From Nitrospinia bacterium (GTDB lineage Bacteria > Nitrospinota > Nitrospinia > Nitrospinales > JAJDAT01), in the NCBI GenBank assembly GCA_029261715.1, contig JAJDAT010000014.1, forward strand, positions 372,001 to 436,000: 64,000 nucleotides of DNA, read 5' to 3'. The notes below the pieces were generated by a model that ran no database searches, was not told the origin of the DNA, and saw only the letters and a program-made list of their open reading frames with translations. Made by a program: the position numbers and the translations under genes. Shown piece after piece: positions 15,551 through 64,000 of the stretch (its first letter is position 1; each line of letters opens with the position of its first letter).

Positions 15551-16705
15551 GTGAATAAAAATAAAACTCCCCTATCTCCTAGCAACCTTCGAAGTAATTC
15601 AAAACTTCTTTTAGCTTTATTTGTATTTGCGCTCTTATTTTCTTATGGATGGAAAATTACAGAAATTGATTTGAAGGAGATGGTTCATGACGCTCACCTC
15701 GTTAAACCGCTTGTTTCAGCTCTCCTTCAGCCCGATATAATTAGTTCAAATAAGAAATCTCAAGAAGTTAAAACCATTTTTTATCTCGACGAGATTCCAA
15801 TAACACCTCCCCATACGCCACTTGAAAACACGCCTCAAATAATTCTATCTTCGATTAGTGGGAGTCGTGACGATCCTATAACTGTTGACGGCAAAAATCT
15901 AAAACCCAATGTTCATGGACAGCTTTTTTGGATAAATTCCATAGAACAAGAGTTTCCAATGGAAGAAATAATTCTTGATGCAAAAGGTTCTTTCCATTCA
16001 ACAATCCGAGTTCCGGAAATGGCGCGCGGCGACATACAATATGTTAAAGCCCAATTAACTTGGAAAACGGGAGGTTGGCATTTCAGTAAAACGTTTTATC
16101 TTGTTCGGGACAAAATGGTTGAAACAATTTTTTTAGCGTTCATGGCTACAGTTTTTGGAGTTGTCTTTGCGCTTCCATTAGGTTTTCTTGGAGCGCGTAA
16201 TGTAACCGGAAATAGCGCCACGGGCTGGAGCATTTACATATTCGTCCGGGGATTTTTTAATATATTACGTTCGATAGAACCTTTGGTGCTAGCTATTTTA
16301 TTTGCAGTCTGGGTAGGCATCGGGCCTTTTGCAGGCGTTCTAGCTTTGGGTTTTCATTCTATTGCAGCGCTGGGGAAATTATTTTCGGAACAAATTGAAT
16401 CTGTCGATAAAGGGCCAATAGAAGCAATTACCTCGGTCGGAGCAACACCACTGCAAGTCATCATTTATGCAATCATTCCTCAAGCCATTCCTCAAATATT
16501 AGCTTACACTTTTTATCGCTGGGACATCAACATTCGGATGTCCACAATTATTGGATTCGTCGGCGGAGGCGGAATTGGTTTTTTGCTTCAACAATGGATT
16601 AATTTACTTCAATACCGACAAGCGGGAACAGCCTTACTCGCCATTGCCATCGCAGTCGTTACACTAGATGCCCTTAGCGCACGAATTCGAGCCAAGGTTC
16701 TTTAA
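15551..16705 (+). CDS. phnE: Phosphonate-type ABC transporter permease PhnE with extra periplasmic domain
   Basis: Inner-membrane channel subunit of a phosphonate/phosphite-type importer. The C-terminal 190 residues are a standard PhnE: the ABC permease core FLAFMATVFGVVFALPLGFL, RSIEPLVLAILFAVWVG, and the EAA loop EAITSVGATPLQVIIYAIIPQ that docks the ATPase, ending with the GGGGIGFLLQQWI segment. The protein is 384 aa against about 270 for usual PhnE; the excess is a roughly 150-residue stretch between TM1 (residues about 18-38) and TM2 (about 192) that should be periplasmic. The start is GTG at 15551. No phnC (ATPase) or phnD (binding protein) flanks it, which is unusual. Confidence 0.85.
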   Translation: MNKNKTPLSPSNLRSNSKLLLALFVFALLFSYGWKITEIDLKEMVHDAHLVKPLVSALLQPDIISSNKKSQEVKTIFYLDEIPITPPHTPLENTPQIILSSISGSRDDPITVDGKNLKPNVHGQLFWINSIEQEFPMEEIILDAKGSFHSTIRVPEMARGDIQYVKAQLTWKTGGWHFSKTFYLVRDKMVETIFLAFMATVFGVVFALPLGFLGARNVTGNSATGWSIYIFVRGFFNILRSIEPLVLAILFAVWVGIGPFAGVLALGFHSIAALGKLFSEQIESVDKGPIEAITSVGATPLQVIIYAIIPQAIPQILAYTFYRWDINIRMSTIIGFVGGGGIGFLLQQWINLLQYRQAGTALLAIAIAVVTLDALSARIRAKVL

Positions 16706-48190: not shown

Positions 48191-48457
48191 AACAACGCAT
48201 TACCAGGGAATGTTCAATGATGAAGGTATAAAAATTATAACTCGTTTGAGCTATATGTTTTTAAAACTTAGAATTGGCTTTCCTGGTTTCTGCGAACAAA
48301 GCTATCAGCTACGCAAAATAAAAAGTTATATCAGGTTTTATATCTGTCCAAAGTTGCGATATTAGCCTCGGTATGATACGGTTCGTCATTCTCAATTTTT
48401 ATCGCAAGAGTTTACCACTTAACCTGCAACTTTAGAACGTTCGTCTCCTATACGACC

Positions 48458-49666
48458 ATGCTTTCTGCATCCGAACAGCTTGAAATTATCCAACGCGGAA
48501 CCGCTGAAATTATCGAAAAAAAAGAGCTCGGTCAACGCATCGATAATGCCATCAAAAAGAATGTTCCGCTTCGCATTAAGGCTGGATTTGACCCTACAGC
48601 GCCCGATTTGCATTTAGGACATACTGTTCTTTTGCAAAAAATGAAACAATTTCAGGATTTAGGACACCAAGCTGTTTTTCTAATCGGCGATTTCACAGGA
48701 ATGATTGGCGATCCTACAGGAAAGTCTGAAACAAGGAAAAGCTTAACAGAAGATCAAGTCAAGGAAAACGCCGCAACTTACCTAGAACAAGTTTTTAAAA
48801 TCTTAGATCCAGAAAAAACCGAAATTGTTTACAACAGCGAGTGGATGAATAAATTCACCTCTTCGGATATGATCCGGTTAGCGGCTAAATATACGGTCGC
48901 TAGAATGCTAGAACGAGATGACTTTCAAAAACGCCTATCGAAAAATCTTCCAATTTCCATGCATGAGATGTTCTATCCTTTAATTCAAGGATATGATTCA
49001 GTCGCTATTAAATCGGATATTGAATTGGGCGGAACAGATCAAAAGTTTAATCTTCTAGTTGGGAGAGAGTTACAAAGAGATTATAAACAAATTCCTCAAC
49101 TCATTTTGACAATGCCTCTTTTGGAAGGAACCGACGGCGAACAAAAAATGAGCAAAAGTCTGGGGAACGCTATTGGCATTGCTGAGCCTCCTCGCGAAAT
49201 GTTTGGAAAGGTAATGTCTATCTCAGATTCTTTGATGTGGCGATACTTTGAGTTATTAAGCGATAAGCCTTCAAATGAAATAGCGGATCTTAAGCAAAAA
49301 GCAGAAATGGGTGAAATGAACCCAAAGAACGCAAAGGTTTTATTAGCTAAAGAAATTGTTTCACGGTTTCACAATTCAGAATCGGCAGAACAAGCTGCAG
49401 CAGAATTTGATAACGTTTTTAAGAAAAAACAATTGCCGGACGAAATCCCAACTATTCCTTCATGGGGTCCAGACGAAATGTGGGTTTGCAAGCTATTGGT
49501 TGATAATAAACTAACAAAAAGCTCTTCCGAAGCGCGGAGAATGGTTCAACAAGGCGCCGTTAGCGTAGATGGAGAAAAGATCGACGACCCCAATCTACAG
49601 TTAGAAGGAAACAAAGAATATTTAATTAAAGTAGGAAAAAAGAAGTTTCTTAAAATCCAACCTTAG
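48458..49666 (+). CDS. tyrS: Tyrosyl-tRNA synthetase (TyrZ-like, ~400-aa class)
   Basis: Charges tRNA-Tyr with tyrosine. The 402-aa protein has the class I signatures: HLGH in [19 protein letters not shown] (HIGH box), the tyrosine-binding [28 protein letters not shown], and KMSKS in [16 protein letters not shown]-terminal S4 RNA-binding domain (residues about 338-400) is visible in [19 protein letters not shown]. It starts at ATG 48458. It is followed by a small acidic gene and is otherwise a stand-alone housekeeping gene. Confidence 0.97.
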
Positions 49667-49702
49667 ATTCCTTACTAAAGAACCTTTAATAAAATAAACA
49701 TT

Positions 49703-50023
49703 ATGCCTGGAAAACCGAACTCATATCTAAAATCGATGATCGTCGATCTACCAGAACCTGCAAAAACTCGTCTTATGATCGAAGAGAACGAAGATTTGGA
49801 TAAAATCGTAAATCAAATTCGTTTGGAAAAACAATGTCTCCATAAACTCGAAGAAAAAATTCAAGATGGAGAAACTGGGAAAGCCCTTCTTTGTAAGTTT
49901 GGTTACTCTGAATGGCTAAAAGAAGCCGAGTTAGGAGATCGTCAGGAAATGTATGGTTTTATGATTCAAATTGAATCTGTAGCTGCAGACCTCGCCGAAG
50001 ATGAAGACGACGAGGAAGATTAG
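49703..50023 (+). CDS. Small acidic protein of unknown function
   Basis: 106-aa soluble helical protein with a poly-acidic tail (AEDEDDEED). Helical stretches with heptad-like spacing (DLDKIVNQIRLEKQCLHKLEE) suggest a coiled coil. The family is not recognised. It begins 37 bp after tyrS on the same strand, so it may be co-transcribed; nothing else connects it to tRNA charging. Confidence 0.65.
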   Translation: MPGKPNSYLKSMIVDLPEPAKTRLMIEENEDLDKIVNQIRLEKQCLHKLEEKIQDGETGKALLCKFGYSEWLKEAELGDRQEMYGFMIQIESVAADLAEDEDDEED

Positions 50024-50038
50024 CTAAACTATAATTTC

Positions 50039-50506
50039 TTAGGAACAACTTCTCATTCCTCGTTTTTCCAAATATTTTTGATGGTAATCTTCAGCTGGAT
50101 AGTAAACGGAAGCTTCTGTAATCTCCGTTACGATTGGACTACGGTAACTACCTGATGCATCAAGATTTGCCTTAGATTCTTCAGCCAACAGCTTTTGTTC
50201 GTCACTGTGATAATATATCCCAGATCGATATTGAGTGCCAATATCTGGTCCTTGGCGATTTAAAGTTGTAGGGTCGTGTTTTTTCCAGAAAACATTAAGT
50301 AACTCAGAGTAAGAAACTTTTTCCGGATCAAAAACAACCTCTACAGCCTCAGCATGCCCCGATCTACCGGTGCAAACCTGTTCATATGTGGGATCTTTTG
50401 TTTGGCCGCTTGTATAGCCTACCGACGTCTCAACCACACCTTCAACTTGTTGGAAAGCTAACTCCACTCCCCAAAAACATCCAGCAGCAAATGTTGCCTT
50501 TTGCAT
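50039..50506 (-). CDS. msrA: Peptide methionine sulfoxide reductase A
   Basis: Reduces methionine-S-sulfoxide in proteins. The 155-aa protein has the catalytic GCFWGVE near residue 9, [31 protein letters not shown] and the [18 protein letters not shown] segment, ending [11 protein letters not shown] with a possible resolving cysteine. ATG 50506 (MQKATF) has GGAG 6 nt upstream; an in-frame TTG at 50518 would overlap that site. Monocistronic and convergent with the small acidic gene. Confidence 0.95.
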
Positions 50507-50748
50507 TTCATACTCCAAAAATTTGGTTGAAAACCAAGTTTGAAAAATTAAAACCTTAAAATAAAACAGTTTTTCGTATTATATCATCCAAATTAAAAGG
50601 TTATTTAGCTAAAATTGAGCTTTTTCAAGATATGGTTAAATATCCTTTTTATAAGCCTTTTTCTTGACACAATAGTGTATAATTTGTTTAAATTAATAAA
50701 ACTTACTAAGAAAGTAATGCCATTTTTAAATTATTCTACTTACTACCC

Positions 50749-51264
50749 ATGAAAACCTTGAAAAAAATTGATAAGCCCTTTAGGAAAAAACTTAGTTATC
50801 AATTATCTCAAGCTTTAATACTGGTTGTTATTATTTTATTTATTGGGGCTTGCGGTATTGCCGCCAAAACGCGAGCGGCAATCAAAGGCGACCTCAATAT
50901 GTATGTTAGTATTGCGGCAAAAGTAAATTCGGATAACCCATTACCTGTAGATGTCGTTTGGGTTTATGACGAAGAACTATTAAAAGAACTTTTGAAACTT
51001 TCCGCAAAGACTTGGTTCGAGAAAAAAGAACAGTTTAAAAGAGACTTTCCCTCTGATGAAGCTTTTGAGGTATGGCCGTGGGAATGGACACCAGGGCAAA
51101 AGGTTACCGTGCAAAAAATTCCCATTAAAGCAAAATCAAAAGGGGGTATAATATTCGCTAACTATTTGATAGATGGAGATCATCGCGCTCGGATAGACCC
51201 TGCCGAAGACTTCCAAATCAATTTTTCTGAAGAATCTTTTTCTGTAACAGAACCAAAAGATTAA
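50749..51264 (+). CDS. TssJ-like type VI secretion lipoprotein (candidate)
   Basis: 171-aa exported protein: a long basic N-terminus, then the lipoprotein signal ALILVVIILFIGAC (lipobox IGAC), and a beta-rich domain with LNMYVSIAAKVNSDNPLPVD, VVWVYDEELLKELLKL and FANYLIDGDHRARI. TssJ (VasD) is the outer-membrane lipoprotein of T6SS, typically of this size, with an N-terminal strand of the form L-N-x8-N followed by a V-x-V-x-x-Y strand, as seen here. The call rests mainly on the tssK gene 78 bp downstream and on length and lipobox; sequence similarity alone is weak. A TTGACA lies at 50664 without a well-spaced -10. Confidence 0.5.
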   Translation: MKTLKKIDKPFRKKLSYQLSQALILVVIILFIGACGIAAKTRAAIKGDLNMYVSIAAKVNSDNPLPVDVVWVYDEELLKELLKLSAKTWFEKKEQFKRDFPSDEAFEVWPWEWTPGQKVTVQKIPIKAKSKGGIIFANYLIDGDHRARIDPAEDFQINFSEESFSVTEPKD

Positions 51265-51341
51265 AACATGGCTGAATCTATATTTTTTTGGAGTTTGAAA
51301 ATTCAAACGTTCCTAAATACCACGTTTGAGGAAAAATAAAA

Positions 51342-52730
51342 ATGGTTGATATACGAAAAATTCCCCCTGCTATAAATTGGCACGAAGGTATGTTGCTCGC
51401 TCCACAACACTTTCAACAAACCGATCAAAGGCATGAGTCTCTTACTACATACCATGTTTCCGCAGTATCCCCTTTTCATTGGGGGATAATGGACTTAAAA
51501 ATTGATCGACCACGTTTGGTAGACGGTAACTTGAAAATTATGTCTCTTGAAGCAGTTATGCCAGATGGATTAGCTGTCTCCTTTGGCGAAAGCGATGCAG
51601 ACAAAGTCTCTGTTAGTTACTACCAAAACAAAGAAGAAGAAAAGAAAAAAGAAGTTTTGGAATTAGATTTAGAGCCTTTAAAACCAGAAATGGAAAGAGG
51701 ACCGCTAACAATCCATTTAGCCGTCGCCTCTCAAAAAATGGGAGTTTCCTATTTCAAAGGCGATATTGATCGTCACGAATCGTTTGAAGGAATAGCCATA
51801 ATTGATGAAAACACAGGCGATAATGAACTTTCAATTCCAAGGCTAAAGCCAAAGTTAAAGTTATTAAGTGTAAATGAATCTTTAGTTAATTATGTAAGTT
51901 TTCCAATTGCAGAAATCACTTTTCAAAATCAAAAGTTTGAGTTAACAGACTTTATTTTTCCAGCTCTTTCCGTTCCATTACGCTTTGCTCTGGGCGAAAA
52001 ATGTACGGCTATAGCAAGAAAAATTAGAGAGAAAGCGGAATACTTGTCGGATCAAGTAAACGCGCCTTCCTCAAAAACTGGCATGCCTCTAGTTTTGGAA
52101 ACCAAAACAATGATTAATAATATGGTAACCTCTTTGCCTTATTATGAAGCAGTTCTAAACACTGGTAAGGCTCATCCATACAATGTTTATCTTGCTCTAT
52201 GTACGCTTGCTGGAAGCGTAGCTGGTCTTAGTAAAGGATTAGTGCCTCCTTCTTTTGATCCGTATGATCACGGCAATCTAAAACATACTTTTAACCAAGT
52301 CCTGACTTATATAGACGATTTAGTTTCTGAAGGCGTTCAAGAAAAATATTCAACAATTCCATTTAAGTATCAGGAAGAATTAAACAGCTTTGGTCTAAAT
52401 CTTAAATCTGAATGGGCGAATAAAGAATTATTTTTTAGCGTCAGAGGTTCTGGAGGAACATCCGAAAAAGATCTTTCGGAGTGGGTCGAAAAAAGTTGGA
52501 TCGGCTCGGAATCAAAAATTCCTACAATTAGAGAAAAAAGAGTGCGTGGCGCTAAGCGTGAGTCAATTGAACGAGATAAAGACATTGTACCTGCCAGAGG
52601 CGTCGTACTATTCAAGCTTACTGTAGACCCTGAATTTATAGAACCCGACCAAAATTTGTCTATTTTTCATCCAACTTCTATGGGATCTGCATCAACTCCA
52701 ACCGAAATTTTGTTACACGTAAAAAAATAG
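51342..52730 (+). CDS. tssK: TssK, type VI secretion baseplate subunit
   Basis: Cytoplasmic protein (ImpJ/VasE family) that links the T6SS baseplate to its membrane complex. The 462-aa chain has the family N-terminus INWHEGMLLAPQHFQQTDQR, then SPFHWGIMDLKIDRPRLVDG and SLEAVMPDGLAV, and a C-terminal domain with RGVVLFKLTVDPEFIEPD. The middle is charged and less conserved. Length matches the usual 440-450. GAGGA precedes the ATG at 51342. No tssB, C, E, F, G, H, L, M, hcp or vgrG gene is in the window. It is followed by a vWA/PP2C/kinase cluster, so regulation by phosphorylation is plausible. Confidence 0.87.
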   Translation: MVDIRKIPPAINWHEGMLLAPQHFQQTDQRHESLTTYHVSAVSPFHWGIMDLKIDRPRLVDGNLKIMSLEAVMPDGLAVSFGESDADKVSVSYYQNKEEEKKKEVLELDLEPLKPEMERGPLTIHLAVASQKMGVSYFKGDIDRHESFEGIAIIDENTGDNELSIPRLKPKLKLLSVNESLVNYVSFPIAEITFQNQKFELTDFIFPALSVPLRFALGEKCTAIARKIREKAEYLSDQVNAPSSKTGMPLVLETKTMINNMVTSLPYYEAVLNTGKAHPYNVYLALCTLAGSVAGLSKGLVPPSFDPYDHGNLKHTFNQVLTYIDDLVSEGVQEKYSTIPFKYQEELNSFGLNLKSEWANKELFFSVRGSGGTSEKDLSEWVEKSWIGSESKIPTIREKRVRGAKRESIERDKDIVPARGVVLFKLTVDPEFIEPDQNLSIFHPTSMGSASTPTEILLHVKK

Positions 52731-52845
52731 GTTCTTTAGTTCGTTTAGTCTTCCCAAAATAACTTTTCGCTACAAGATGAGCGCGTCATGCAAACCGACG
52801 TCGTATCAACATTTTTCAAACAAAAACCCCTAAAAGGGATTTAAG

Positions 52846-53547
52846 ATGCGAAAACGCCCCGGGGGAGCCCTAGCCGGTCGTCCTCTACATTTTATATGGA
52901 TCGCCGATAAATCTGGATCCATGGGAATCGACGGAAAGATACAGGCTTTAAACCACGCTATCCACGAAGCAATTCCTCATATGAAAGAGGCTGCCAACGA
53001 AAACCCCAACGCGGAGGTACTCGTTCGAGCTGTGGTATTTTCTGACGGAGCCCAATGGCATATTTCTAAGCCAACCCCCATTTCCGATTTCAAATGGAAA
53101 GACTTAACTGCCGGCGGAATAACGGATATGGGAAAAGCCATGAATCTAGTAGCGGATCAATTAAAAATTCCTCCGATGACAGATCGAGCCCTCCCACCCG
53201 TTTTAGTTTTAATTTCTGATGGTCAACCTACAGACGATTTTAACGCAAGCCTAAAAAACCTTTTATCTTTGCCCTGGGGCAAAAAATCAGTTCGAATCGC
53301 TATTGCTATAGGTGAAGACGCCGATTTAGATACTCTTCAAAAATTTATTGGCAATGTAGAAATTGGGCCATTTCAGGCCAATAACCCCGAAACCCTTAAG
53401 AATTATATTAAATGGACTTCAACGGCTGTCCTTAAAGCCACTTCTTCCCCAATGAGCCAAACTGATTCGTCTGATTCAGGAACTCCTCCAAGTTCATTCA
53501 TTCCAGAACCAACTATTTCAACCGATTCTTCTTCTGATATTTGGTGA
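52846..53547 (+). CDS. TerY-type von Willebrand factor A domain protein
   Basis: 233-aa cytoplasmic vWA protein. The metal-ion-dependent adhesion site is complete: D21-x-S23-x-S25 in IADKSGSMG, Thr93 in AGGITDMG and Asp125 in LISDGQPTD. Compact single-domain vWA proteins of this size are TerY-like and are known from TerY-P triads together with a PP2C phosphatase and a protein kinase, exactly the genes that follow. A Ser/Thr/Pro-rich tail (residues about 205-233) could be a phosphorylation target. AAGGG lies 7 nt before the ATG; the next gene begins 3 nt after its stop. Confidence 0.9.
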   Translation: MRKRPGGALAGRPLHFIWIADKSGSMGIDGKIQALNHAIHEAIPHMKEAANENPNAEVLVRAVVFSDGAQWHISKPTPISDFKWKDLTAGGITDMGKAMNLVADQLKIPPMTDRALPPVLVLISDGQPTDDFNASLKNLLSLPWGKKSVRIAIAIGEDADLDTLQKFIGNVEIGPFQANNPETLKNYIKWTSTAVLKATSSPMSQTDSSDSGTPPSSFIPEPTISTDSSSDIW

Positions 53548-53550
53548 TTT

Positions 53551-54429
53551 ATGCCTTCTGTTACCAAAAAAAATGACGGTACTTGGCATATTATAGGCGA
53601 AAGCGTTCGAGGAGTTACACACGATCGGAAAGGATTACCAAATCAAGACGCGATTCGATATGTAGTAGAAAAAGGAAATGAGCTTCCGTTGGCCGTTGCC
53701 GTTTCTGACGGACATGGCAATTCTAGAAACTTTAGAAGCGAATTTGGCGCTCAGTTAGCGGCAAATATAACAAGCGATATTTTAATTCGCTTTTTGTCGC
53801 AGCCTTGTAATAAAAAAAATTCAGATCAAACGCTAAATAACATACAAAAAATTTTGATCCCCGATATCATCGAGACTTGGAAAAAAGAAGTCTTAGACCA
53901 TTTTGAAAAAAATCCAATTTTAGAAACCGAACGAGAAAGATTAATCAGTAAGAACGGATTCTCTCCGGACATAAATAACAATTTATCCGATCCCATTTTA
54001 TTTTACGGAACTACTCTTTTAGCCGCAGGGGTTTCTGACTCATTAATAATATTACTCCAGTTGGGAGATGGCGATATTCTCACTGTAGATCCACTTGGCA
54101 AAGTCTCTCAACCTATGCCCCATGATGACAATCTATTTGCGGACGAAACTACTTCATTATGTTTACCAAACGCAGAACAATATATGCGGTACGTTGTTTT
54201 AGAACCTCAAACAAACCAAACAAAACTTTTGCTAATTTCAACCGATGGTTATTCAAAGTCTTTTATTAAAGATTCGGACTTTCTTGAAGTGGGTCCAGAT
54301 TTTTTAGAACTTCTCGAAAATGAAGGCATAGCTACCGTTGAAAATAATTTGAAAAAGTGGTTAGACGAAACTTCTCGATTAGGCAGCGGGGACGATATAA
54401 CTTTGGGAATTATTTATCATGAACGATAA
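53551..54429 (+). CDS. PP2C-type protein phosphatase (first triad)
   Basis: 292-aa Mn/Mg-dependent Ser/Thr phosphatase. Metal-binding motifs: GLPNQDAIRY (Asp33), AVSDGHGNSR (Asp53-Gly-His-Gly), LQLGDGDILTV, LISTDGYSKS and GSGDDITLGII (final Asp pair). No membrane segment. It is the second element of a TerY-P triad and starts 3 nt after the vWA gene; its end overlaps the next gene by 11 nt, indicating coupled translation. It presumably reverses phosphorylation made by the kinase encoded at 56.6 kb. Confidence 0.92.
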   Translation: MPSVTKKNDGTWHIIGESVRGVTHDRKGLPNQDAIRYVVEKGNELPLAVAVSDGHGNSRNFRSEFGAQLAANITSDILIRFLSQPCNKKNSDQTLNNIQKILIPDIIETWKKEVLDHFEKNPILETERERLISKNGFSPDINNNLSDPILFYGTTLLAAGVSDSLIILLQLGDGDILTVDPLGKVSQPMPHDDNLFADETTSLCLPNAEQYMRYVVLEPQTNQTKLLLISTDGYSKSFIKDSDFLEVGPDFLELLENEGIATVENNLKKWLDETSRLGSGDDITLGIIYHER

Positions 54430-56578
54430 AATGAGCGAGGTTCCTCGAGAAGAATTAGCAAAAATCCTGAAAAACTACGGCAAAGATCTTTGTCAAGACC
54501 CTCGAAGATGTGAAGCATTTTTGAAAGACCTATGCGGTCCTCACAAAAGAGAAATATTTATATTAGTAAGCGGTATTCGAGAAAGAATTCCTGAAGCTCT
54601 TCAGAAAAACTCCGAAAACTCAGTTAGTTTTAATCTTTTATTAGGCAATTTAACTAAACGATTGCGAGATAACTTAGGGCTTTCGCCTGAAGCGGCTTTA
54701 TGGTGTGTAGAAACATGGACATACGCATTAGAGCTAGCGCCAAAATCTCCTACAATCAAACCTACCCCAAAAAATAATATATCAAAGGAACCTAGTTCTA
54801 ATTCTACTGAACATAGACCCATTCCAACGTTTGCGGTTTCTTTATCTGAAAAGGGAAGTTTTAATTCTATTTCAGATGCTCTAGAGCATGCGCCTCCACA
54901 TTCTCGGATAATAATATACCCAGGTCGATATGAAGAAGCTATAACTATCAATAAACCCATTGAGATAATCGGTCAAGGCTCTCCTAGAGAAATTGTTATC
55001 GTCTCTAAAGATGGTCCTTGCATCCGTATGGAAACCCAAACCGCCTTAGTATCAGGTTTAACGCTTCGAGGAATCTCCCCAAAATCGTATACCGTCGAAA
55101 TATCTAAGGGAGAATTGAAGTTAAAAGATTGCGATATTTCTTCAGAATTTTTCTCTTGTATAGGAATTTTCGGGCCATCGGCTCGACCCATCATTTTTGG
55201 TTGCCGAATTAATAAAGCCAAAGAATATGGATTGCATGTCGCCCTTCAAGCTCAAGGAATGATTGAAGAGTGCGAAATTTATGCAAATAAGTTGTCAGGA
55301 ATTAAAATTCAACAGGATGCTAATCCAATATTTAGAAAATGTCGAATCCGAGGTGGAAAAGAAAATGGACTAACCGTTAACGACAGCGGAAGAGGAATAC
55401 TAGAAAATTGCGACTTTTCAGGGAATGGAGGCAACGCAATTGAGACTGAAACAAAAGGAGAACCAACCTTAAAAAATTGTAAAATTCATGATGGGAAAAA
55501 AGGTATCCAAGTCTTGGATTCAGGCAAAGGTAATTTTTATGGTTGCGATATTTTCAATAATACTCGACCTGGAATCGAGATAATAAAAAATGGGAACCCT
55601 GTTTTTGAGAAATGTCAATTTCACCACGGACGCGATTTAGGAATTTCCATATCCAAAAACGGGAAAGGAAAATTCAAAGATTGTGAAGTATTCGCAAATA
55701 TTAAAGGAGGTCTTTCAATATCGGACTTAGGAGACCCAGAGTTTGAAAACTGTCTTATTCATGACAACCGAGAGAATGGAGCCTATTTTTTTAGCAAAGG
55801 CAAAGGCAAATTTCAAAGTTGTAGCTTTAGCGGAAACTCTTTGGCCTCTGTTTTTATTCAATCTCTTGGAAATCCTATTTTTAGCCAATGTCGATTTAAT
55901 TCCGGACGCGGTAGCTTAATAATTCATGACCGAGGAAAGGGCATTTTTGAGAAATGCGAAATATTTCAAAATGAATTTGCTGGCGTTGAAATAAGAGAAA
56001 AGGGAAACCCAAGCTTGGAAGATTGCCGAATATACGATGGGCAAAGCGCTGGAGTCTTTATATACCGTAATGGATCTGGAACGTTTAAAAACTGTGAAAT
56101 TTTTGGAAATCAATCTGCGGGAGTAGCAATTAAGCAACAAGCCAATCCAAAAATTATTGGTTGCAAAGTTTATGGAAATCGAGAAAACGGAATCGAAATC
56201 TTTGACCAAGGAAAAGGGATATTTCAAAATTGCGATATTTATTCAAATAAAGGTTCCGGAATCAAAATTGCCCACCAAGGCGACCCTTCACTTAAAAATT
56301 GTAAAATAAGAGAAAGTGAATTCTCTGGCTTACTCGCTATCGACTTCGGCGTCGGATACTTAGAATCATGCCAAATAATATCTAACGGCAATTATGGCGT
56401 AGACATCCTGAAGGGCGGAAACCCAATTATCAGAAACTGTAAAATTAATCGAAATAAATCGAAAGGCGCTCGAATTGCGAACAAGGGAGTTGGCGATTTT
56501 GATAATTGCGACTTAACTGAAAATCGTGAAGGAGCATGGGCTATTGACCCAGAATGCCAGGTAAAAATGGCAGGTTAA
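54419..56578 (+). CDS. Right-handed beta-helix protein with a 21-cysteine ladder
   Basis: 719-aa cytoplasmic protein (no signal). Residues about 1-110 are an all-helical domain (NYGKDLCQDPRRCEAFLKDL, LSPEAALWCVETWTYALE) of the type found at N-termini of bacterial signalling proteins. After a linker with TFAVSLSEKGSFNSISDAL come about 23 parallel beta-helix coils. The coils alternate G-x-G-x-F-x2-C-[DE]-I and G-[ND]-P-x-F-x2-C-x-I, a 46-residue double unit, with 21 cysteines at equivalent turns (for example KGNFYGCDIF, NPVFEKCQFH). It resembles NosD/pectate-lyase-like folds but shows no obvious catalytic residues. Start is ATG 54419 or 54431. Confidence 0.85.
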   Translation: MNDKMSEVPREELAKILKNYGKDLCQDPRRCEAFLKDLCGPHKREIFILVSGIRERIPEALQKNSENSVSFNLLLGNLTKRLRDNLGLSPEAALWCVETWTYALELAPKSPTIKPTPKNNISKEPSSNSTEHRPIPTFAVSLSEKGSFNSISDALEHAPPHSRIIIYPGRYEEAITINKPIEIIGQGSPREIVIVSKDGPCIRMETQTALVSGLTLRGISPKSYTVEISKGELKLKDCDISSEFFSCIGIFGPSARPIIFGCRINKAKEYGLHVALQAQGMIEECEIYANKLSGIKIQQDANPIFRKCRIRGGKENGLTVNDSGRGILENCDFSGNGGNAIETETKGEPTLKNCKIHDGKKGIQVLDSGKGNFYGCDIFNNTRPGIEIIKNGNPVFEKCQFHHGRDLGISISKNGKGKFKDCEVFANIKGGLSISDLGDPEFENCLIHDNRENGAYFFSKGKGKFQSCSFSGNSLASVFIQSLGNPIFSQCRFNSGRGSLIIHDRGKGIFEKCEIFQNEFAGVEIREKGNPSLEDCRIYDGQSAGVFIYRNGSGTFKNCEIFGNQSAGVAIKQQANPKIIGCKVYGNRENGIEIFDQGKGIFQNCDIYSNKGSGIKIAHQGDPSLKNCKIRESEFSGLLAIDFGVGYLESCQIISNGNYGVDILKGGNPIIRNCKINRNKSKGARIANKGVGDFDNCDLTENREGAWAIDPECQVKMAG

Positions 56579-56591
56579 TCATTTAAAAGAT

Positions 56592-57911
56592 ATGAATCAA
56601 TTACTAAAAACTAATTGCAAACTTTCATTGACCAATCTACAAACTCATTGCGAGGTAGACTACATCATTGGAAGCGGCGCTCAGGGAGAAGTTTATAAAG
56701 TGGATTTAGATGGAAAATCCCTTGCTCTAAAATGGTATTTCTCAAGAGCCGCGACAGAAAAACAACGTAATATTTTAAAAACACTCATCGATAAAGGACC
56801 GCCTGCTTCAAGCTTCCTTTGGCCTATACTTTTTGCCGAATCTCCAGCCATTCCTGGATTCGGTTATTTTATGCCACTGCGGGATACAAGATTTAAAGGA
56901 CTGACAAATTTAATGAAGAGACGAATCGATCCAACGTTTCAAACATTATCGCTAACAGGCGCAAATTTAGCTCATAACTTCCTACAACTTCATTCCAAAG
57001 GATTGTGCTACAGAGATATATCTTTTGGAAATATTTTTCTAGATCCTAATACCGCTGAAATTCAAATTTGCGACAACGACAATGTGACCGAAGACGATCA
57101 AAGTCAGGGTGGGATATTAGGTACCCCTAGATTTATGGCTCCAGAATTAGTACGAAGAGAGGCTAGCCCAAGTTCTCAAACCGATTTATTTTCCCTTTCA
57201 GTTCTACTCTTCTACCTGCTTTTGCTTCATCACCCTCTTGAAGGCAAGAAAGAACTCTCTATTAAATGTTTAGACCTCCCTGCTATGAACCGATTGTATG
57301 GCAAAGAACCATTATTTATCTTTGATCCTATCGATTCATCGAACGAACCTGTTTCTGGCCATCATGATAACGCTTTAATATTTTGGCCTATCTATCCGAA
57401 GTTTTTACGTGACTTGTTTATACAAGCGTTTGGGGAAGGCCTTGTCGATCCTACGTCGAGAGTAAGAGAAAGTGAATGGAGAAACGCTTTAACCCTTCTT
57501 AGCGATTCTATTTTTTATTGTTCTAATTGTGAATCAGAAAATTTTTACGATTCTGATTTTATAAAAGCAAATCAAGGGTCAGCAGGAATATGCTGGTCTT
57601 GCCAAAACACGCTTTCTTTGCCGCCAAGAATAAAAATAGAAAATAAAATCATCATGCTTAATAAAGATTCAAAACTATTTCCATATCACATTGACGATTC
57701 AAGACCTTGCGATTTTTCAGCTCCAATCGGAGAAAGACTCTCTAAAAACTCAGACCTAGAACAGCCTACTATAAAAAATATCTCTAGAGAAAAATGGGTT
57801 TCTTCTCTACCTGGAGAAACTCCACACGATATTCTTCCTGGAGAAAAACTTAACTTAATTACCGGGACACAGGTTTATTTCGGAAAGAAAAAAGGTATTA
57901 TCCGCATTTAA
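56592..57911 (+). CDS. Protein kinase with C-terminal zinc ribbon (first triad)
   Basis: 439-aa Ser/Thr-type kinase. Glycine loop GSGAQGEVYKV (27-36), Lys47 in LALKWYF, catalytic loop YRDISFGN (Asp142, Asn147; YRD for HRD), metal-binding CDNDNV (Asp161 or Asp163 for DFG), and GTPRFMAPEL (APE). Residues about 305-340 carry a zinc ribbon, C310-x2-C313 ... C334-x2-C337, followed by a beta-rich C-terminal domain of unclear type. Kinases of this layout belong to TerY-P triads. It is 13 bp after the beta-helix gene. Nearly all catalytic residues are present, so it should be active. Confidence 0.9.
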   Translation: MNQLLKTNCKLSLTNLQTHCEVDYIIGSGAQGEVYKVDLDGKSLALKWYFSRAATEKQRNILKTLIDKGPPASSFLWPILFAESPAIPGFGYFMPLRDTRFKGLTNLMKRRIDPTFQTLSLTGANLAHNFLQLHSKGLCYRDISFGNIFLDPNTAEIQICDNDNVTEDDQSQGGILGTPRFMAPELVRREASPSSQTDLFSLSVLLFYLLLLHHPLEGKKELSIKCLDLPAMNRLYGKEPLFIFDPIDSSNEPVSGHHDNALIFWPIYPKFLRDLFIQAFGEGLVDPTSRVRESEWRNALTLLSDSIFYCSNCESENFYDSDFIKANQGSAGICWSCQNTLSLPPRIKIENKIIMLNKDSKLFPYHIDDSRPCDFSAPIGERLSKNSDLEQPTIKNISREKWVSSLPGETPHDILPGEKLNLITGTQVYFGKKKGIIRI

Positions 57912-58007
57912 ACAATCAAACTCGATTTATAGAATAAATTTATTATTGTTTATAAAGGCAGGCTATAATAAATAATATTAAACTCTTCATTTTTGGAACT
58001 CGGAATT

Positions 58008-58973
58008 ATGGCTAAATTCATTTGTCCCAATTGCAAGAAAGAGTACGAAAAAAAGACAGAAGACGGCTACTGCAATAATCAACCAGAATGTGAATATGGT
58101 TTGGGTTGGTTAACAGAACTTTCTTCCACAACTCCAATAGAAGAAACCGCCGAAGCCAATTCCCCATCCCCAATCTCTTTCGAAAGAGAAATTGGACTTT
58201 GCGTTTTGATGATGGACGGTTCTTATTCCATGGCCGATCCTGCTTTTCCAAGCTCGGATTATCCCGGAAATAAATACGATTTAATCGCTCGAAACTCTGC
58301 CGCAGGAATCTGGTCTCTCAAAAATCTAACTCATATTGATAGCGCTTACATCGCTTTTTGCGTTTTTGCGGGAAAACCTATTTGGATCTGGACTAAGAGT
58401 ATCAAAGAAATAATTGACGAATTTCAAAATCGTCAAAATTTCTCCGACTTTATTTATGAAACCTTAGAGAAAAAGACCCTTGAACCAAAAGCAACAAATA
58501 TTAACGCCGCTTTAAACCTCTCCTACGATATTTTTCAGCAATATCTAGAGGGAAACTTAAAAGATTTTGGCGGCTTAACGGATTTCAAACCATTGGAACA
58601 CCAAGTCGTGCGCCAAGACGACAAAGGGCAGGAAGATTTTATTACAATTCCAAACGCCCGCACTTTCATATACACGGATGGGGAACATAATGTAACTGCC
58701 CCAATCCGTAATCCCTTTGAGCAAGTCGAACAATCTATTTTAATGACGGCATTTATTGGAGAAGAAGAAGAATCCTCGGGGATAAAACAAATGAAAGAAC
58801 TTGCAGCCATTTGCCCAAAACATTCTCCATCAAAAGGTTTTTTCCTTTTTGACGACGCTGAAAGGTCCCAAATCCTTAAAGGTCTATTTAGAATGGCTTC
58901 CGGAGCTTCTGGGTTTTGCCCTTCTTGTCTCTTGCTCGACCAATCCCCCCCTAATGAAGAAGCTTCAGAATGA
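58008..58973 (+). CDS. Zinc-finger vWA protein (second triad)
   Basis: 321-aa cytoplasmic protein with an N-terminal zinc finger (C6, C9, C22, C28 in FICPNCKKEY ... GYCNNQPEC) and a vWA domain with a MIDAS-like D70-G-S72-Y-S74 in LMMDGSYSM, then TNINAALNLSYDIF and FIYTDGEHNV. A second CxxC sits near the end (FCPSCLL). The vWA domain contains inserted loops and is larger than the TerY one. ATG 58008 is chosen; an in-frame TTG at 57993 is weaker. Its stop overlaps the next gene (ATGA), so translation is coupled. Confidence 0.85.
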   Translation: MAKFICPNCKKEYEKKTEDGYCNNQPECEYGLGWLTELSSTTPIEETAEANSPSPISFEREIGLCVLMMDGSYSMADPAFPSSDYPGNKYDLIARNSAAGIWSLKNLTHIDSAYIAFCVFAGKPIWIWTKSIKEIIDEFQNRQNFSDFIYETLEKKTLEPKATNINAALNLSYDIFQQYLEGNLKDFGGLTDFKPLEHQVVRQDDKGQEDFITIPNARTFIYTDGEHNVTAPIRNPFEQVEQSILMTAFIGEEEESSGIKQMKELAAICPKHSPSKGFFLFDDAERSQILKGLFRMASGASGFCPSCLLLDQSPPNEEASE

Positions 58974-59842
58974 CCTCGGTTCCTCCCCTACCCAGTGACA
59001 ATGAAAACAAAAACAGCCGCGCCCTAATTTGCGAAATAACCACATCGTCCGGTCCACGCAAAGGGATGCCATCGGGAAAAAGTTCAAACTTAGAACTAGG
59101 CGAAGATTCTGGCGGCTTCTTATCACTTTCCGGTCAATTAGGAATTATTTGGATTGCTGATGGAACAAGCGATTCAACACGTATAGGTTCATTTTCCTCA
59201 AGAATTCTAGCGCAAGAGTTGGGGCAGGCATTTTCAAACGAAATATTAACTCATTGGACAAGTTTACGAAAAACCAAAAAACTTGACGTTAACCTATCCG
59301 AAATAGTTACAAAAACAGCTGATAAAATCAAAACAAAGTGGTCGTCTCGTTTAAAAGAAAATCCGGAAGAAGAAAAAGCTCTGGTTCGATCACTTTCGTC
59401 CTTAAAACAAAAAACTCCCGAACCTAATTCCATCTTTTATGAATTCTCTTCGACTTTTTCGGCTATCACTTTGGACAGCGAAGGAAATTTAAACTGTGTC
59501 TCCGCAGGCGATTCCTTGACAGCTATTTTTAAAAAAGATGAAAATCAATTTTTCGCGTTTAAAAAAGGAGGCATAACTTTTCGACTAAAGATAAAAGGCG
59601 GAAAAATCGCGTGTGAAAAGTTTCTATCGCCTTTAGAAAATTATCAAACAAACGAAACGAACTTCGTCATATTGTCTTCCGATGGAGCTAAAGAAACAAT
59701 TTTATCGTTAACAAAAGATAAAAAACTTCTTAAACCCAATTTAGAGCATTTTCTTTTATTGAAAGAAAAAAGTATAGGGACTTATCCAAAAACACAAGAC
59801 GATAAAACTTTAGGACTTATAGGACGAATTCATGCAAGTTAA
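58970..59842 (+). CDS. PP2C-like phosphatase (second triad)
   Basis: 290-aa PP2C-fold protein, divergent from the first copy. The equivalent motifs are ELGEDSGGF (N-terminal acidic pair), IIWIADGTSDST (Asp-Gly, no His), SAGDSLTAIF, ILSSDGAKET and KTQDDKTLGLI. The metal-binding aspartates thus seem to be kept while the DGHG histidine is not, so activity is probable but unproven. It starts at the overlapping ATGA of the zinc-finger vWA gene and overlaps the following kinase gene by 11 nt. Confidence 0.85.
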   Translation: MTSVPPLPSDNENKNSRALICEITTSSGPRKGMPSGKSSNLELGEDSGGFLSLSGQLGIIWIADGTSDSTRIGSFSSRILAQELGQAFSNEILTHWTSLRKTKKLDVNLSEIVTKTADKIKTKWSSRLKENPEEEKALVRSLSSLKQKTPEPNSIFYEFSSTFSAITLDSEGNLNCVSAGDSLTAIFKKDENQFFAFKKGGITFRLKIKGGKIACEKFLSPLENYQTNETNFVILSSDGAKETILSLTKDKKLLKPNLEHFLLLKEKSIGTYPKTQDDKTLGLIGRIHAS

Positions 59843-60755
59843 ATTGGGACTGTTCACAAAGTTCTTCGACCCTAATACCATGAATTGGAAAAACCAATCT
59901 TCTCTAAACGATCAATTTGGAGTTTGGAAAATAGGAAAACGAAATATTTTTGTTAAGAGATTTCAAAAACTTCCACCTGGATGGCGTTTGATGGAAGAGG
60001 CTATCGTTAAATCGTTTTTAAATACCCCACAAATTTATCGCCTCCAAGAAGATGATAATTTCTATTACGCTTTCATGGAATGTCTAGATGGAGATACCCT
60101 ATACAACATCATTCAAGGAAGAAAAACTTCCGATTTTTTTCAAACTTCCGGTTTGGGTAACGAAGATAAAATTAATATTGTGCTCTCAGTAACCGCTAGC
60201 ATTCGATCTCTAAATCTAAGAGGTTTTTGGTATCCCGATTTAGATTTAAAAAATATTTTTGTGGTAAAAACCCCTAAAAAAACTAAAATTTTTCTTATAG
60301 ATTTAGATAGTTGTCCCAGTAGCGACCAATCTTTTGATCCTGGAAATGTTTCTCAAGTCTGTTGGGAAGGTTTAGTAAAAACCTATCTTAAACACGGCAA
60401 GCCTTTTTTAAAACGAGAAGGTCCGAACATTGTTCGAATTGCTCCTAATGGAATCCATTTAAACCAATCAATGCTTATTTTATTCGCTCATTACATCAAA
60501 AGATTAGGAATTGTGCCAAAAGAACTACCGCTTTACGATCCTTTAATCAATTCTAAAAGCCCTTTTAGCGGCACACTTTCTTTAATACATTTAAAATTGT
60601 TAGACGGGGAGGATTCCTGGAGGGACACGGAAGCGTTTATTTGTAATTACTTTTCCATTTCTAAATCTAGACTCCAGAAAAAATACCAAGGAAAAAAACC
60701 AGGAAAAACTCACTGGGTTGAGCTGATAAGGAAATTAAAGAACGCGCGAACTTGA
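59832..60755 (+). CDS. Kinase-fold protein of the InaA/WaaP-like type (second triad)
   Basis: 307 aa, kinase fold with Lys42 in IFVKRF, catalytic-loop equivalent YPDLDLKN (Asp136 and Asn141) and metal-binding segment LIDLDSC (Asp157/159). It lacks a glycine-rich loop and an APE motif. The PDLDLKN..IDLD pattern resembles the lipopolysaccharide kinase InaA/WaaP group and differs from the triad-1 kinase. It is translationally coupled to the PP2C gene (11-nt overlap). The substrate could be protein or small molecule; I cannot tell. Last gene of the cluster. Confidence 0.75.
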   Translation: MQVKLGLFTKFFDPNTMNWKNQSSLNDQFGVWKIGKRNIFVKRFQKLPPGWRLMEEAIVKSFLNTPQIYRLQEDDNFYYAFMECLDGDTLYNIIQGRKTSDFFQTSGLGNEDKINIVLSVTASIRSLNLRGFWYPDLDLKNIFVVKTPKKTKIFLIDLDSCPSSDQSFDPGNVSQVCWEGLVKTYLKHGKPFLKREGPNIVRIAPNGIHLNQSMLILFAHYIKRLGIVPKELPLYDPLINSKSPFSGTLSLIHLKLLDGEDSWRDTEAFICNYFSISKSRLQKKYQGKKPGKTHWVELIRKLKNART

Positions 60756-60812
60756 TTATTCCACTGGGGATAGCGTTTTGCGAAGGATTGGGAAAAACCT
60801 AATTTTTTTCAA

Positions 60813-61220
60813 TTAAACAGGGATTTCACTCTTACTATCTGCCGTTTTATCCAAAGCTTTATTTATTACAGAAAATAATTTCTTCAAGTTAATTGGTTTG
60901 TCTACGCAAGCAAAAGCTCCATTTCTTAGACATTCTGCTTTTATTTCTTGGTCGCTTAAGGCCGTAGTCATGATCACTTTAATATTAGGTTTCCAAAGCC
61001 TTATCATTTTGACCAACTCGTCTCCAGTTAACTTTGGCATTAAAATATCCAAAAGAATCACATCTGGACCAAAACTATGAATTTTTTCTAAAGCTTTCTC
61101 GCCATCTTCAGCTTCTTCAAACAAGTAATTTTTCTTTTTTAGATAAACTAAAAGTAATCCTCGGGCGTCTGGATCATCATCAACCACCAAAATTTTAGCA
61201 GATTCGTTATTGGTTTTCAT
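60813..61220 (-). CDS. Single-domain response regulator (CheY-like)
   Basis: 135-aa receiver domain only: KILVVDDDPDARGLL (acidic triad), phospho-acceptor Asp in VILLDILMPKLTGDE, MTTALSDQ (Thr) and CVDKPINLKK (Lys). All phosphorylation residues are present. The ATG at 61220 is preferred (AAGGG 6 nt upstream) over an upstream in-frame start that would add 18 basic residues. It is adjacent to the vWA/PP2C/kinase cluster but on the opposite strand; a link is possible but not supported by overlap. Confidence 0.92.
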   Translation of the reverse strand: MKTNNESAKILVVDDDPDARGLLLVYLKKKNYLFEEAEDGEKALEKIHSFGPDVILLDILMPKLTGDELVKMIRLWKPNIKVIMTTALSDQEIKAECLRNGAFACVDKPINLKKLFSVINKALDKTADSKSEIPV

Positions 61221-61512
61221 TTTAGCCCTTATAACTCGGCATTTTTTGAGTATTAATACTTTTTCTAAAAACAATCTTAGTCAATTATATAATAAGATTC
61301 AAATTGTCTTTTTTATTTATGATAAGTCAAAAAAACGAATATTTATTTTTTTAAGAACGCCCAAAAGTTTTAATGGTAAAATTTAAAGATACGACAAGCG
61401 CGATAAAATCTTTTGGTTGGCATGTATAAATTCTTAATCGAACAAAGCCAATCATTCAGGATTATTGAACTTTTACAAATCCCCTTAATCTTAAACCCAA
61501 TAAAATAAATGT

Positions 61513-63996
61513 ATGAACTCTTTAGCTAGATTATTCACCTATTCAATTTTATTATGCTTTTTTTGTTTTATTGAAATTGCAGGAGGATTAAAAGCTTCAT
61601 TTGCCGAAGACGTTTCTCTATTTTTATCATCCATTCCAAATTTAAGCGAAGATAAAATAAACCTAAGTAAAACCTTATTAGCTGTTTCAAAAGATTGGAA
61701 TAAAAATGTCGACGAAGTTTTCTTTAAAACTTCTATTGAAGCCTTAGTAGAAGAAGTTAATAAGAACATTCAAAATAGTTCGAAACCTTCAGAAATTGTA
61801 ACCGCGTTAAGAGAAGTCATACACAAAAAATTCGGTTATCGATACACAGATCAACTAGACCCACAAGGGATTCCCCTCAATCCAAACGAACTGTTTTTAC
61901 ATGGACTACTTGAAACTCAAAAAGGTTATTGTATGACCTTGTCGCTCATTTATTTAATAGCGGCCGAATATTTAGAAAAACCCATTTTTGGCGTCGCGTT
62001 GCCTAATCATTTTTTTGCGCGCTACGATTCAAAAGATTCCCATATCAATATAGAAGCAACCGAAGGAGGAATACCCCTTCCAGATAGTTATTATTACGAT
62101 CGCTTTGGAGTTGAAAAAAATTCTTCTTTTTTTATGAAAAGTCTGAACAAAAAACAAACTCTAGGAGCTTATTTTTCGAATGTAGGAATGGCTTATTACA
62201 AACAAAATCTTCCTAAAAAAGCAGTATTTTATTTAGATCTTGCCACCCAAATAAATCCTCTTTCGGTCGAAGCTCGTAATAATTTAGGAAACATTTATTC
62301 TGAATTAAAAGAATTCAAAAATGCAATTAAACAATATGAAGCAGCCTCCAACGCGGATCCGAACAATCTAGCGACCCTTTTTAATTTAGGAATTGCCTAC
62401 TCCGATTCTGGAGAAAAAAAGGGAGCCGCCGAGGCCTTCATGCAAGTCATTCAGATTGATCCCAATTATGTTCCAGCCCATCGATATCTAGTTAAAATCT
62501 TTATTGATCAAAGCAATTTTATTGGAGCTCTTCTACATTTAAAACAAATTTCTAAGCGACAAAAAAATAATCCCGAAATTTCTCTAACGATAGCCGAAGT
62601 TTACTTTCAACTTAAAAATTATGAAATGGCTTTACAAACTTTAAAGAAAATAGAATCGTCCTTTCCAGATAATCCAAAATTTAAAGAAAAGTTGGCCGAA
62701 GCCTTTTACCGTCTGGAAAAATTTGACGAAGCGATATCTCAATATCGTTATTTAATTGAAATGAAACCGAATAATTTAAGATCCTACGTTCAATTAGGCT
62801 GGACTTATTATCGTAAGGGGGAAATCGATTTGGCTATTGGCTGGACTAAACGCGGCCTAAAAGATAGTCCCGAGCCTGATAAGTTAAAAACTCTAGGTCG
62901 CATGAATCTTGGTTTTTATAACGTTCTCGACGAACAATTTGAAGAAGCTCAAAATTGGTATAAAAAGACGTTGTCCGCAAAAAATTCAAACTTATTGGAA
63001 GGTATGGTGGGCGACCTAACTGAGGCCCAGGACAAATTCCCTAATTTAATGGAAATATACTTTTTTAAAGGTTGGCTATACAAAGAATCGCAAAAAGATG
63101 AGAAAGCCGCCGAATTTTTAAAAAAATATTTGGCTAAAGCTCCAAACGGAAAAATGGCAAAAGCCGCTAAAAACGCCCTTAAAGAGTTGGGTATAGCCGT
63201 AAATATCGACAACCTCAATGAAAAATCAGAAGCAGGAATGATTCTTATCCCCTCTGGGTTTTTCTTAATGGGTTCTGACGATAAAGGAAGTGACGAGAGC
63301 CCCAAGCACAAAGTATTTCTAGACTCATATTTTATTGATCAATTCGAAGCAAGCGCTGAGGAATTCGCCATATTTTTGAACCAATCTCCCGACCCAAGTA
63401 GATATTATAAAGATAATAAATATGGGACCTTAGATTTTGGCAAAAAATTTAAACCTAGAGAAGGATTTGAAAACTTTCCTATTAATAACGTAACTTGGTT
63501 TGGGGCCAAAGCTTTTTGCCAATTTAACGATAAGAGACTCCCTACGGAAGCCGAATGGGAAAAAGCCGCTAGAGGAGTTGACGGAAGAAGATACCCCTGG
63601 GGAGATACACAACCAACTCCCTCAATCGCCCGTTTTAATCAACAATGGGACGAAAAAAGACTGAACGCTATGGTCTCAGTAGATTCTATGTCTGGCGGTA
63701 AAAGCCCCTTTGGGCTAGAGCAAATGGCGGGGAATATTAAAGAATGGGTAGACGATTGGTACGATGGAGAGTATTATACGGATTACAAACACCAAATAAA
63801 TCCAAAAGGCCCTTTTGGGGGCGAGTTTAAAGTATTAAAAGGAGGATCCTGGCACGATTTAATGAGTTTTCTTTATTCTTCCTTTCGGAATAATAGTGCG
63901 CCTTCCATAGGGCTTGAAGACTATGGGTTTCGTTGCGCAAAGAGTAAAGAAAAAGGACCAGCTCCCAAGAAATTAATCAGGTGGCAAAATAATTAA
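61513..63996 (+). CDS. Transglutaminase-like/TPR/SUMF1 multidomain exported protein
   Basis: 827 aa. The signal peptide (residues about 8-31, FTYSILLCFFCFIEIAGGL) leads to a SirB1/transglutaminase-like domain (about 60-200) with Cys140 in QKGYCMTLSLIYLIA, His166 in LPNHFFARYD and Glu181 in NIEATEGG. About nine TPR repeats follow (residues about 215-560: YYKQNLPKKAVFYLDLATQI, LGNIYSELKEFKNAIKQYEA), then a SUMF1 domain (about 573-815: MILIPSGFFLMGSDDKGSDE, LPTEAEWEKAARGVDG, YGFRCAK) without the FGE C-x4-C. It probably serves as a periplasmic scaffold or peptidase-like protein. Start ATG 61513; the gene ends 4 bp before the window edge. Confidence 0.85.
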   Translation: MNSLARLFTYSILLCFFCFIEIAGGLKASFAEDVSLFLSSIPNLSEDKINLSKTLLAVSKDWNKNVDEVFFKTSIEALVEEVNKNIQNSSKPSEIVTALREVIHKKFGYRYTDQLDPQGIPLNPNELFLHGLLETQKGYCMTLSLIYLIAAEYLEKPIFGVALPNHFFARYDSKDSHINIEATEGGIPLPDSYYYDRFGVEKNSSFFMKSLNKKQTLGAYFSNVGMAYYKQNLPKKAVFYLDLATQINPLSVEARNNLGNIYSELKEFKNAIKQYEAASNADPNNLATLFNLGIAYSDSGEKKGAAEAFMQVIQIDPNYVPAHRYLVKIFIDQSNFIGALLHLKQISKRQKNNPEISLTIAEVYFQLKNYEMALQTLKKIESSFPDNPKFKEKLAEAFYRLEKFDEAISQYRYLIEMKPNNLRSYVQLGWTYYRKGEIDLAIGWTKRGLKDSPEPDKLKTLGRMNLGFYNVLDEQFEEAQNWYKKTLSAKNSNLLEGMVGDLTEAQDKFPNLMEIYFFKGWLYKESQKDEKAAEFLKKYLAKAPNGKMAKAAKNALKELGIAVNIDNLNEKSEAGMILIPSGFFLMGSDDKGSDESPKHKVFLDSYFIDQFEASAEEFAIFLNQSPDPSRYYKDNKYGTLDFGKKFKPREGFENFPINNVTWFGAKAFCQFNDKRLPTEAEWEKAARGVDGRRYPWGDTQPTPSIARFNQQWDEKRLNAMVSVDSMSGGKSPFGLEQMAGNIKEWVDDWYDGEYYTDYKHQINPKGPFGGEFKVLKGGSWHDLMSFLYSSFRNNSAPSIGLEDYGFRCAKSKEKGPAPKKLIRWQNN

Positions 63997-64000
63997 AAAA

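Follow-up and report, generated by a model that had tools for sequence, protein, structure and literature searches.

In studied type VI secretion systems (T6SSs) the kinase PpkA phosphorylates Fha or TssL, with PppA and TagF opposing activation (PMC3953482, PMC10482370), and the PpkA of Pseudomonas aeruginosa carries an extracellular vWA domain (PMC3224232). TerY-P triads, as defined in PMC11090510, are regarded as switches that sense metals and work by phosphorylation. Here we describe a block of nine genes in which both kinds of parts stand side by side, found in a window of 64,000 nucleotides (the whole stretch of DNA analysed, C14:372001-436000) of G000, a marine Nitrospinia bacterium and the source genome (5.33 Mb, 52 contigs). 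The block is probably the front half of a complete T6SS cluster, in which TerY-P-type phospho-switches placed between tssK and tssL replace PpkA, PppA, Fha and TagF. The nine same-strand open reading frames (ORFs) listed by a first-pass annotation of this DNA were all found in place, at these window positions:

50749..51264, + strand: tssJ, T6SS membrane-complex lipoprotein (outer membrane) with lipobox ...IGAC (by predicted fold)
51342..52730, + strand: tssK, T6SS baseplate subunit (TIGR03353, PF05936)
52846..53547, + strand: vWA1, TerY-like vWA protein (PF00092)
53551..54429, + strand: PP2C1, predicted PP2C-type phosphatase (PF13672)
54419..56578, + strand: beta-helix protein, N-terminal domain of ~100 aa and long right-handed beta-helix (PF13229)
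56592..57911, + strand: kinase1, predicted Ser/Thr kinase with C-terminal zinc ribbon and possible FHA-like beta-sandwich (PF00069)
57993..58973, + strand: vWA2, vWA protein with N-terminal zinc ribbon (invariant MIDAS, or metal ion-dependent adhesion site, residues)
58970..59842, + strand: PP2C2, divergent predicted PP2C-type phosphatase (PF13672 in orthologues)
59832..60755, + strand: kinase2, predicted divergent kinase, InaA/Kdo-like (profile matches to solved kinases)

The PpkA-PppA-Fha-TagF pathway of P. aeruginosa (H1), S. marcescens and A. tumefaciens likewise has a Ser/Thr kinase and a PP2C phosphatase in the T6SS locus, and a vWA domain (in PpkA) and an FHA-type fold are involved. Unlike that pathway, however, the window encodes its vWA proteins as separate ORFs, with no vWA domain seen in kinase1 or kinase2, and it has two full triads and a beta-helix protein. 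No TagF or T6SS Fha scored over cut-off; kinase1 has a zinc ribbon and a putative FHA-like domain of its own. As for the TerY-P triads, triad 1 fits their definition with all three parts, namely a TerY-like vWA protein with MIDAS, a PP2C-like phosphatase and a kinase carrying a zinc ribbon in its C-terminal part. In triad 2 all three protein types are present and in operon order, but its kinase is InaA-like and without zinc ribbon, the ribbon being on vWA2 instead, and it is therefore TerY-P-like and not a TerY-P member by definition. Both triads lie inside a T6SS cluster, unlike the TerY-P triads of tellurite, restriction or CoCoNuT loci.

The actinobacterial GAP1-N2 systems (PMC7159879) show a similar kinase with zinc ribbon and beta-rich tail, next to a PP2C and a stand-alone vWA protein; in contrast to these, the window has no GTPase, is linked to a T6SS and carries a beta-rich tail predicted to be FHA-like. 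Among plasmid records the closest triad-free backbone is the T6SS of Azospirillum and Cupriavidus, which shares tssJ-tssK-tssL-tssM-tssA and tssB-C-hcp-E-F-G-H-vgrG (TssK at most 36% identity, full length). Our literature search found no system joining TerY-P-type triads to a T6SS; an earlier mention in the founding 2012 TerY-P paper (PMC4104200) is possible. The parts are known; what seems to be new is their combination, its conservation and its use again in a magnetosome locus.

TssJ, TssK and the distant half of the cluster

The TssK assignment is secure, with 222.6 bits for TIGR03353 (cut-off 100), 140.8 bits for PF05936 (cut-off 23.4) and a PDB match to the TssK structure 5y0e; rejection by hidden Markov model (HMM) searches, the outcome named beforehand as speaking against it, did not occur. 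For the lipoprotein, previously called TssJ-like, neither a Pfam or NCBIfam HMM match over cut-off nor a match of its sequence profile in the PDB was found, and the identification is settled by predicted fold. The best PDB folds for its AlphaFold model (mean predicted local distance difference test, pLDDT, 78.8) are the solved structures of Serratia Lip, P. aeruginosa TssJ1 and E. coli SciN, at E-values of 3e-5 to 3.5e-4, and on this modelled evidence the protein is TssJ. Its orthologues adjoin tssK in six relatives.

G000 contains two TssC and two TssK genes, and we refer to the lineage of the window tssJ and tssK as T6SS-A and to the second system of this genome as T6SS-B. On the reverse strand at C14:42143-62394 lie the genes for PAAR, a MORN protein, VgrG, TssH, TssG, TssF, TssE, Hcp, TssC, TssB, TssA, TssM and TssL. 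This cluster is without TssJ and TssK, and exactly these two are in the window, 360 kb away on the same contig, so that 13 of 13 T6SS core functions are encoded in two parts. TssA, B, C, D, E, F, G, H and I score over HMM cut-offs, as does TssL (PF09850, 83 bits, cut-off 27); TssM matches TIGR03348 with 253 bits (E-value 6e-75), under the cut-off of 388. Core genes usually, though not of necessity, share a single cluster, as they do in the relatives G002, G005 and G021 but not in G000. The first-pass annotation had spoken of isolated T6SS parts and of a stripped or split apparatus, and had suggested looking for other tss genes in the genome; since these were found, the parts are not isolated and the apparatus is split, not stripped.

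T6SS-B, at C25:283064-305365, has its own TssJ and TssK (its TssJ is 28% identical to that of the window), a fused TssB-TssC and pentapeptide proteins, and no ClpV/TssH gene was seen in the cluster. The fused sheath protein has 652 aa in G000 (G000:C25:283064-285022, L002:820-2775) and 730 aa in G052 (G052:C160:27009-29201), with pentapeptide-repeat/DUF2169 proteins alongside.

The two triads and the beta-helix protein

Families, motifs and operon order bear out the two TerY-P-like phospho-signalling triads proposed for this block. The MIDAS of vWA1 is intact (D21/S23/S25...T93...D125), and the protein shares 70% identity with its relatives and 68.7% with a Methylomonas plasmid protein; the plasmid proteins most similar to it are vWA proteins encoded in vWA-PP2C-kinase operons. 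PP2C1 matches PF13672 with 122 bits, and its metal-binding Asp motifs are intact, D53-G54, D232-G233 and D281-D282 being invariant. In kinase1 the catalytic residues K47, D142, N147 and D161 and the CxxC...CxxC cysteines of the zinc ribbon are invariant, and a beta-rich region follows the cysteines. The model of this C-terminal part is of low confidence (pLDDT 57) and its top PDB matches are mostly FHA domains (best E-value 0.02, template modelling score 0.50); the FHA-like nature of the tail, in which the usual phosphothreonine-binding residues were not identified, is suggestive only.

The beta-helix protein matches PF13229 with 271 bits, and its N-terminal ~100 aa have no Pfam model. Within Nitrospinota this N-domain occurs only at the four loci with triad 1, apart from one weak match in G075. 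On plasmid CP157007 of Methylomonas sp. AM2-LC, homologues of kinase1, vWA1 and PP2C1 (456, 319 and 154 bits; CP157007.1:32317-39746, L075) are adjoined by five tandem proteins with the same N-domain, the rest of each protein being ClpX-type zinc finger, Clp_N, Tim44-like, Sel1 or without assignment; the 49 kb of this plasmid that were read showed no T6SS genes. As the N-domain is a constant partner of triad 1 and the remainder is exchangeable, we propose that the beta-helix protein may act as scaffold or adaptor of triad 1.

Like TssJ, the window proteins vWA2, PP2C2 and kinase2 each fall below HMM cut-offs. In vWA2 the MIDAS residues D75, S77, S79, T168 and D229 are invariant in six orthologues. 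PF13672 (PP2C_2) is recognised in 4 of 7 PP2C2 orthologues, and also in a homologue from G062 (31.8 bits), and E45-D46, D64-G65, G180-D181, D238-G239 and D277-D278 are invariant. Kinase2 matches PF00069 and PF06293 weakly and solved kinases, including WbdD, by profile; its catalytic K42, D136, N141 and D157 are invariant, and in each of the six relatives that have T6SS-A its gene directly precedes tssL. No relatives of vWA2 were found outside Nitrospinota among genome contigs and plasmids, the genome scan using two short zinc-ribbon motifs which may miss distant relatives. Alignment with hhalign of PP2C2 with PP2C1, vWA2 with vWA1 and kinase2 with kinase1 gave alignments too shallow to speak for a duplication as the link between the two triads, and the contexts of the triads suggest separate origins.

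The tight spacing noted earlier for most of the block holds inside both triads (gaps of 3, -11 and 13 nt in triad 1; -4 and -11 nt in triad 2, the vWA2/PP2C2 overlap being ATGA), but not for the whole block, since the module joints measure 77 (tssJ/tssK), 115 (tssK/vWA1) and 81 nt (triad 1/triad 2). The start of vWA2 is more likely ATG 58008 than TTG 57993. Scanning for sigma-70 promoters and terminators gave nothing above background level, and a search for tRNA genes over window 48000-64000 was negative. Downstream, at 61513-63996, the window encodes a protein of 827 aa whose TPR repeats and subsequent formylglycine-enzyme-like (SUMF1-type) domain were recognised by eye.

Conservation in Nitrospinota and use in other settings

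Among 77 Nitrospinota genomes surveyed, TssK is present in 10. Three of them (G002, G005 and G021) carry one run, tssJ-tssK-vWA1-PP2C1-betahelix-kinase1-vWA2-PP2C2-kinase2-tssL-tssM-tssA-tssB-tssC-hcp-tssE-tssF-tssG-tssH-vgrG (position of hcp read in G005 and G021), with the same seven genes between tssK and tssL. The gene vWA2 is found in 7/7 T6SS-A genomes and 1/70 others (G062), and vWA1 and kinase1 in exactly four of the 77 (G000 and the above three), although these counts are not independent trials because the genomes are related. The co-occurrence search proposed in the first-pass annotation thus bears out a doubled phospho-switch that appears, from gene order and phylum-wide co-occurrence, to be linked to T6SS-A. 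With the complementary distant half and the contiguous clusters of relatives, isolated or borrowed TssJ and TssK were rejected as a reading.

G003 and G009 have no triad 1 and their cluster is cut between vWA2 and PP2C2, tssJ-tssK-vWA2 lying on one contig and PP2C2-kinase2-tssL-... on another, with unrelated genes past each cut end; the contigs of G006, where vWA2 is at a contig start, are consistent with a cut inside triad 2. In a tree of eight concatenated Tss proteins, (G003,(G006,G009)) is sister to (G000,(G021,(G002,G005))), with support of 99-100 in the Shimodaira-Hasegawa-like approximate likelihood ratio test (SH-aLRT). In the backbone outgroups Azospirillum and Cupriavidus tssJ-tssK-tssL-tssM-tssA is unbroken, with no triads between tssK and tssL. 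The tree points to an ancestral intact cluster and two independent breaks. The simplest history is that triad 2 entered between tssK and tssL in the ancestor, the two breaks coming later, and that the G000/G002 branch either acquired triad 1 with the beta-helix gene or alone retained them. As the genes outlasted both breaks, one of which cut triad 2 itself, a functional tie of the triads to the T6SS is indicated; and with the clusters of relatives whole or cut elsewhere, the cassettes look like the T6SS's own on/off switches.

Triad genes beside tssK were absent from the regions read of the T6SS-B type (G000, G052) and of the G067/G069 type. Occurrence of tssJ and tssK without the triads, which had been named as a finding against the link, was seen only in these two types and in Azospirillum and Cupriavidus; within T6SS-A triad 2 is never missing. 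Neither TagF (TIGR03373) nor T6SS Fha (TIGR03354) scored over cut-off in the seven T6SS-A genomes, and TagH/Fha and TagF were over cut-off only in G067/G069, which served as positive control.

Other genes were seen beside tssJ in relatives. Upstream of it in G005 (L021:3394-10008) and G002 (L022) lie a PAS/GAF histidine kinase of 1.4 kaa and a dCache sensor protein of ~740 aa, both absent beside tssJ in the window. In G009, G003 and G006, tssJ-tssK(-vWA2) is divergent from a putative chemosensory operon, recognised by sequence look (receptor, CheW, response regulator, CheR/CheA-like), in these regions:

G009:C122:18368-29355 (L019:11368-22355): putative chemosensory operon region
G003:C23:184274-195686: putative chemosensory operon region
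G006:C200:5441-15795: putative chemosensory operon region

The one vWA2 homologue beyond T6SS-A belongs to a triad-2 homologue in G062, a genome of another Nitrospinota family (contig C70; L065:10871-18122, L066). There the triad is flanked by mamA and mamB within a magnetosome gene cluster, with mamP, mamO, mamM, mamE and mamK nearby; mamB alone is over its NCBIfam cut-off, the other mam genes being best-family matches below it. Against profiles built without G062, its vWA, PP2C and kinase score 209, 80 and 71 bits. Their positions in L065 are:

14897-15979, - strand: vWA protein
13265-14218, - strand: PP2C
12318-13268, - strand: InaA-like kinase

On the opposite strand between the vWA2 and PP2C2 homologues (L065:14350-14772) an ORF for a four-helix bundle (23S IVS-type) was noted by eye.

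A candidate assembly switch and its rivals

These cassettes are best read as a post-translational assembly switch, since they are inserted between tssK and tssL, their active sites are intact and Fha and TagF are missing. Activities, substrates, signal, scaffold role and direction of regulation are here inferred from the genes. The substrates of kinase1 and kinase2 would be proteins of T6SS assembly, the vWA partner of each kinase, or both; TssL, TssK, vWA1, vWA2 and the beta-helix protein are candidates, and PP2C1 and PP2C2 would reverse the phosphorylation. The metal-binding vWA proteins may serve as phospho-dependent adaptors, the beta-helix protein as the scaffold that guides triad 1 to where it acts, and in kinase1 zinc ribbon and FHA-like tail may stand in for a separate Fha protein. 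Phosphorylation would then license baseplate assembly on the membrane complex, as PpkA/PppA/Fha/TagF do in Pseudomonas, Serratia and Agrobacterium, with triad 2 as the constant switch and triad 1 possibly supplying a second input. In G000 the back half (tssL to vgrG) would have moved 360 kb from the half with tssJ and tssK.

Several points weigh against this reading. Most of the genomes are drafts or metagenome-assembled genomes (G002 consists of one contig), and misassembly is in principle conceivable as the cause of the 360 kb split in G000. G002, G006 and G009 encode FHA-domain proteins that match TIGR03354 weakly, and no conserved phospho-site was identified in TssL. Furthermore, because both triads exist without a T6SS (Methylomonas plasmid, G062), the partner of a triad need not be a T6SS.

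The triads might instead be a TerY-P stress or anti-phage/defence module, riding as a defence-island passenger in the T6SS locus with no role in secretion. TerY-P triads are indeed known from tellurite-resistance and restriction/defence loci, stand-alone triads are found on plasmids and kinase1 scores weakly against PADLOC kinases. We nevertheless consider this rather unlikely, as the position between tssK and tssL is constant in all contiguous clusters, the triads outlast two independent breaks even with the triad itself cut, vWA1 and kinase1 are never found without T6SS-A in the 77 genomes, and no recognisable defence genes occur among the cluster ORFs read. Less probable still is a role of the triads as sensors of envelope or metal stress that control T6SS genes at the level of transcription or translation and not post-translational assembly: the zinc ribbons, the MIDAS metal sites and the sensor kinases or chemosensory-looking operon beside tssJ in relatives would suit such a role, but the block holds no DNA-binding domain or sigma-factor gene and the triads are co-located with the structural genes tssK and tssL. 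Most studied T6SS kinase/phosphatase pairs also act post-translationally via Fha or TssL (PMC3953482, PMC10482370), a point qualified by PpkA2 of V. alginolyticus, which acts also via a transcription factor (PMC10482370). Scarcely credible is the suggestion, raised in the first-pass annotation, of a separate machine with borrowed TssJ and TssK, unrelated to the distant tssL-vgrG cluster. The distance of 360 kb from the other tss genes and the presence of T6SS-B would allow it; however, the gene contents are exactly complementary, the distant half being short of J and K only, the contiguous order in relatives joins both halves, and the TssJ and TssK of T6SS-B are distinct and remain with T6SS-B.

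If the cassettes are assembly switches, the finding extends what is known of T6SS gating, in which one pathway (PpkA/PppA/Fha/TagF) has been described; this lineage appears to use two TerY-P-type modules instead. The TerY-P family, so far connected with tellurite resistance and DNA restriction and of unsettled biochemical role, would gain a concrete target machine and, in TssK, TssL, vWA1, vWA2 and the beta-helix protein, a set of candidate substrates. We advance only tentatively, at somewhat less than even chances, that TerY-P-type triads are general portable phospho-switches, plugged into different large envelope-bound machines such as T6SSs and magnetosomes and controlling their assembly. 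The magnetosome homologue suggests such a general rule, and the question becomes what both machines share for the switch to act on.

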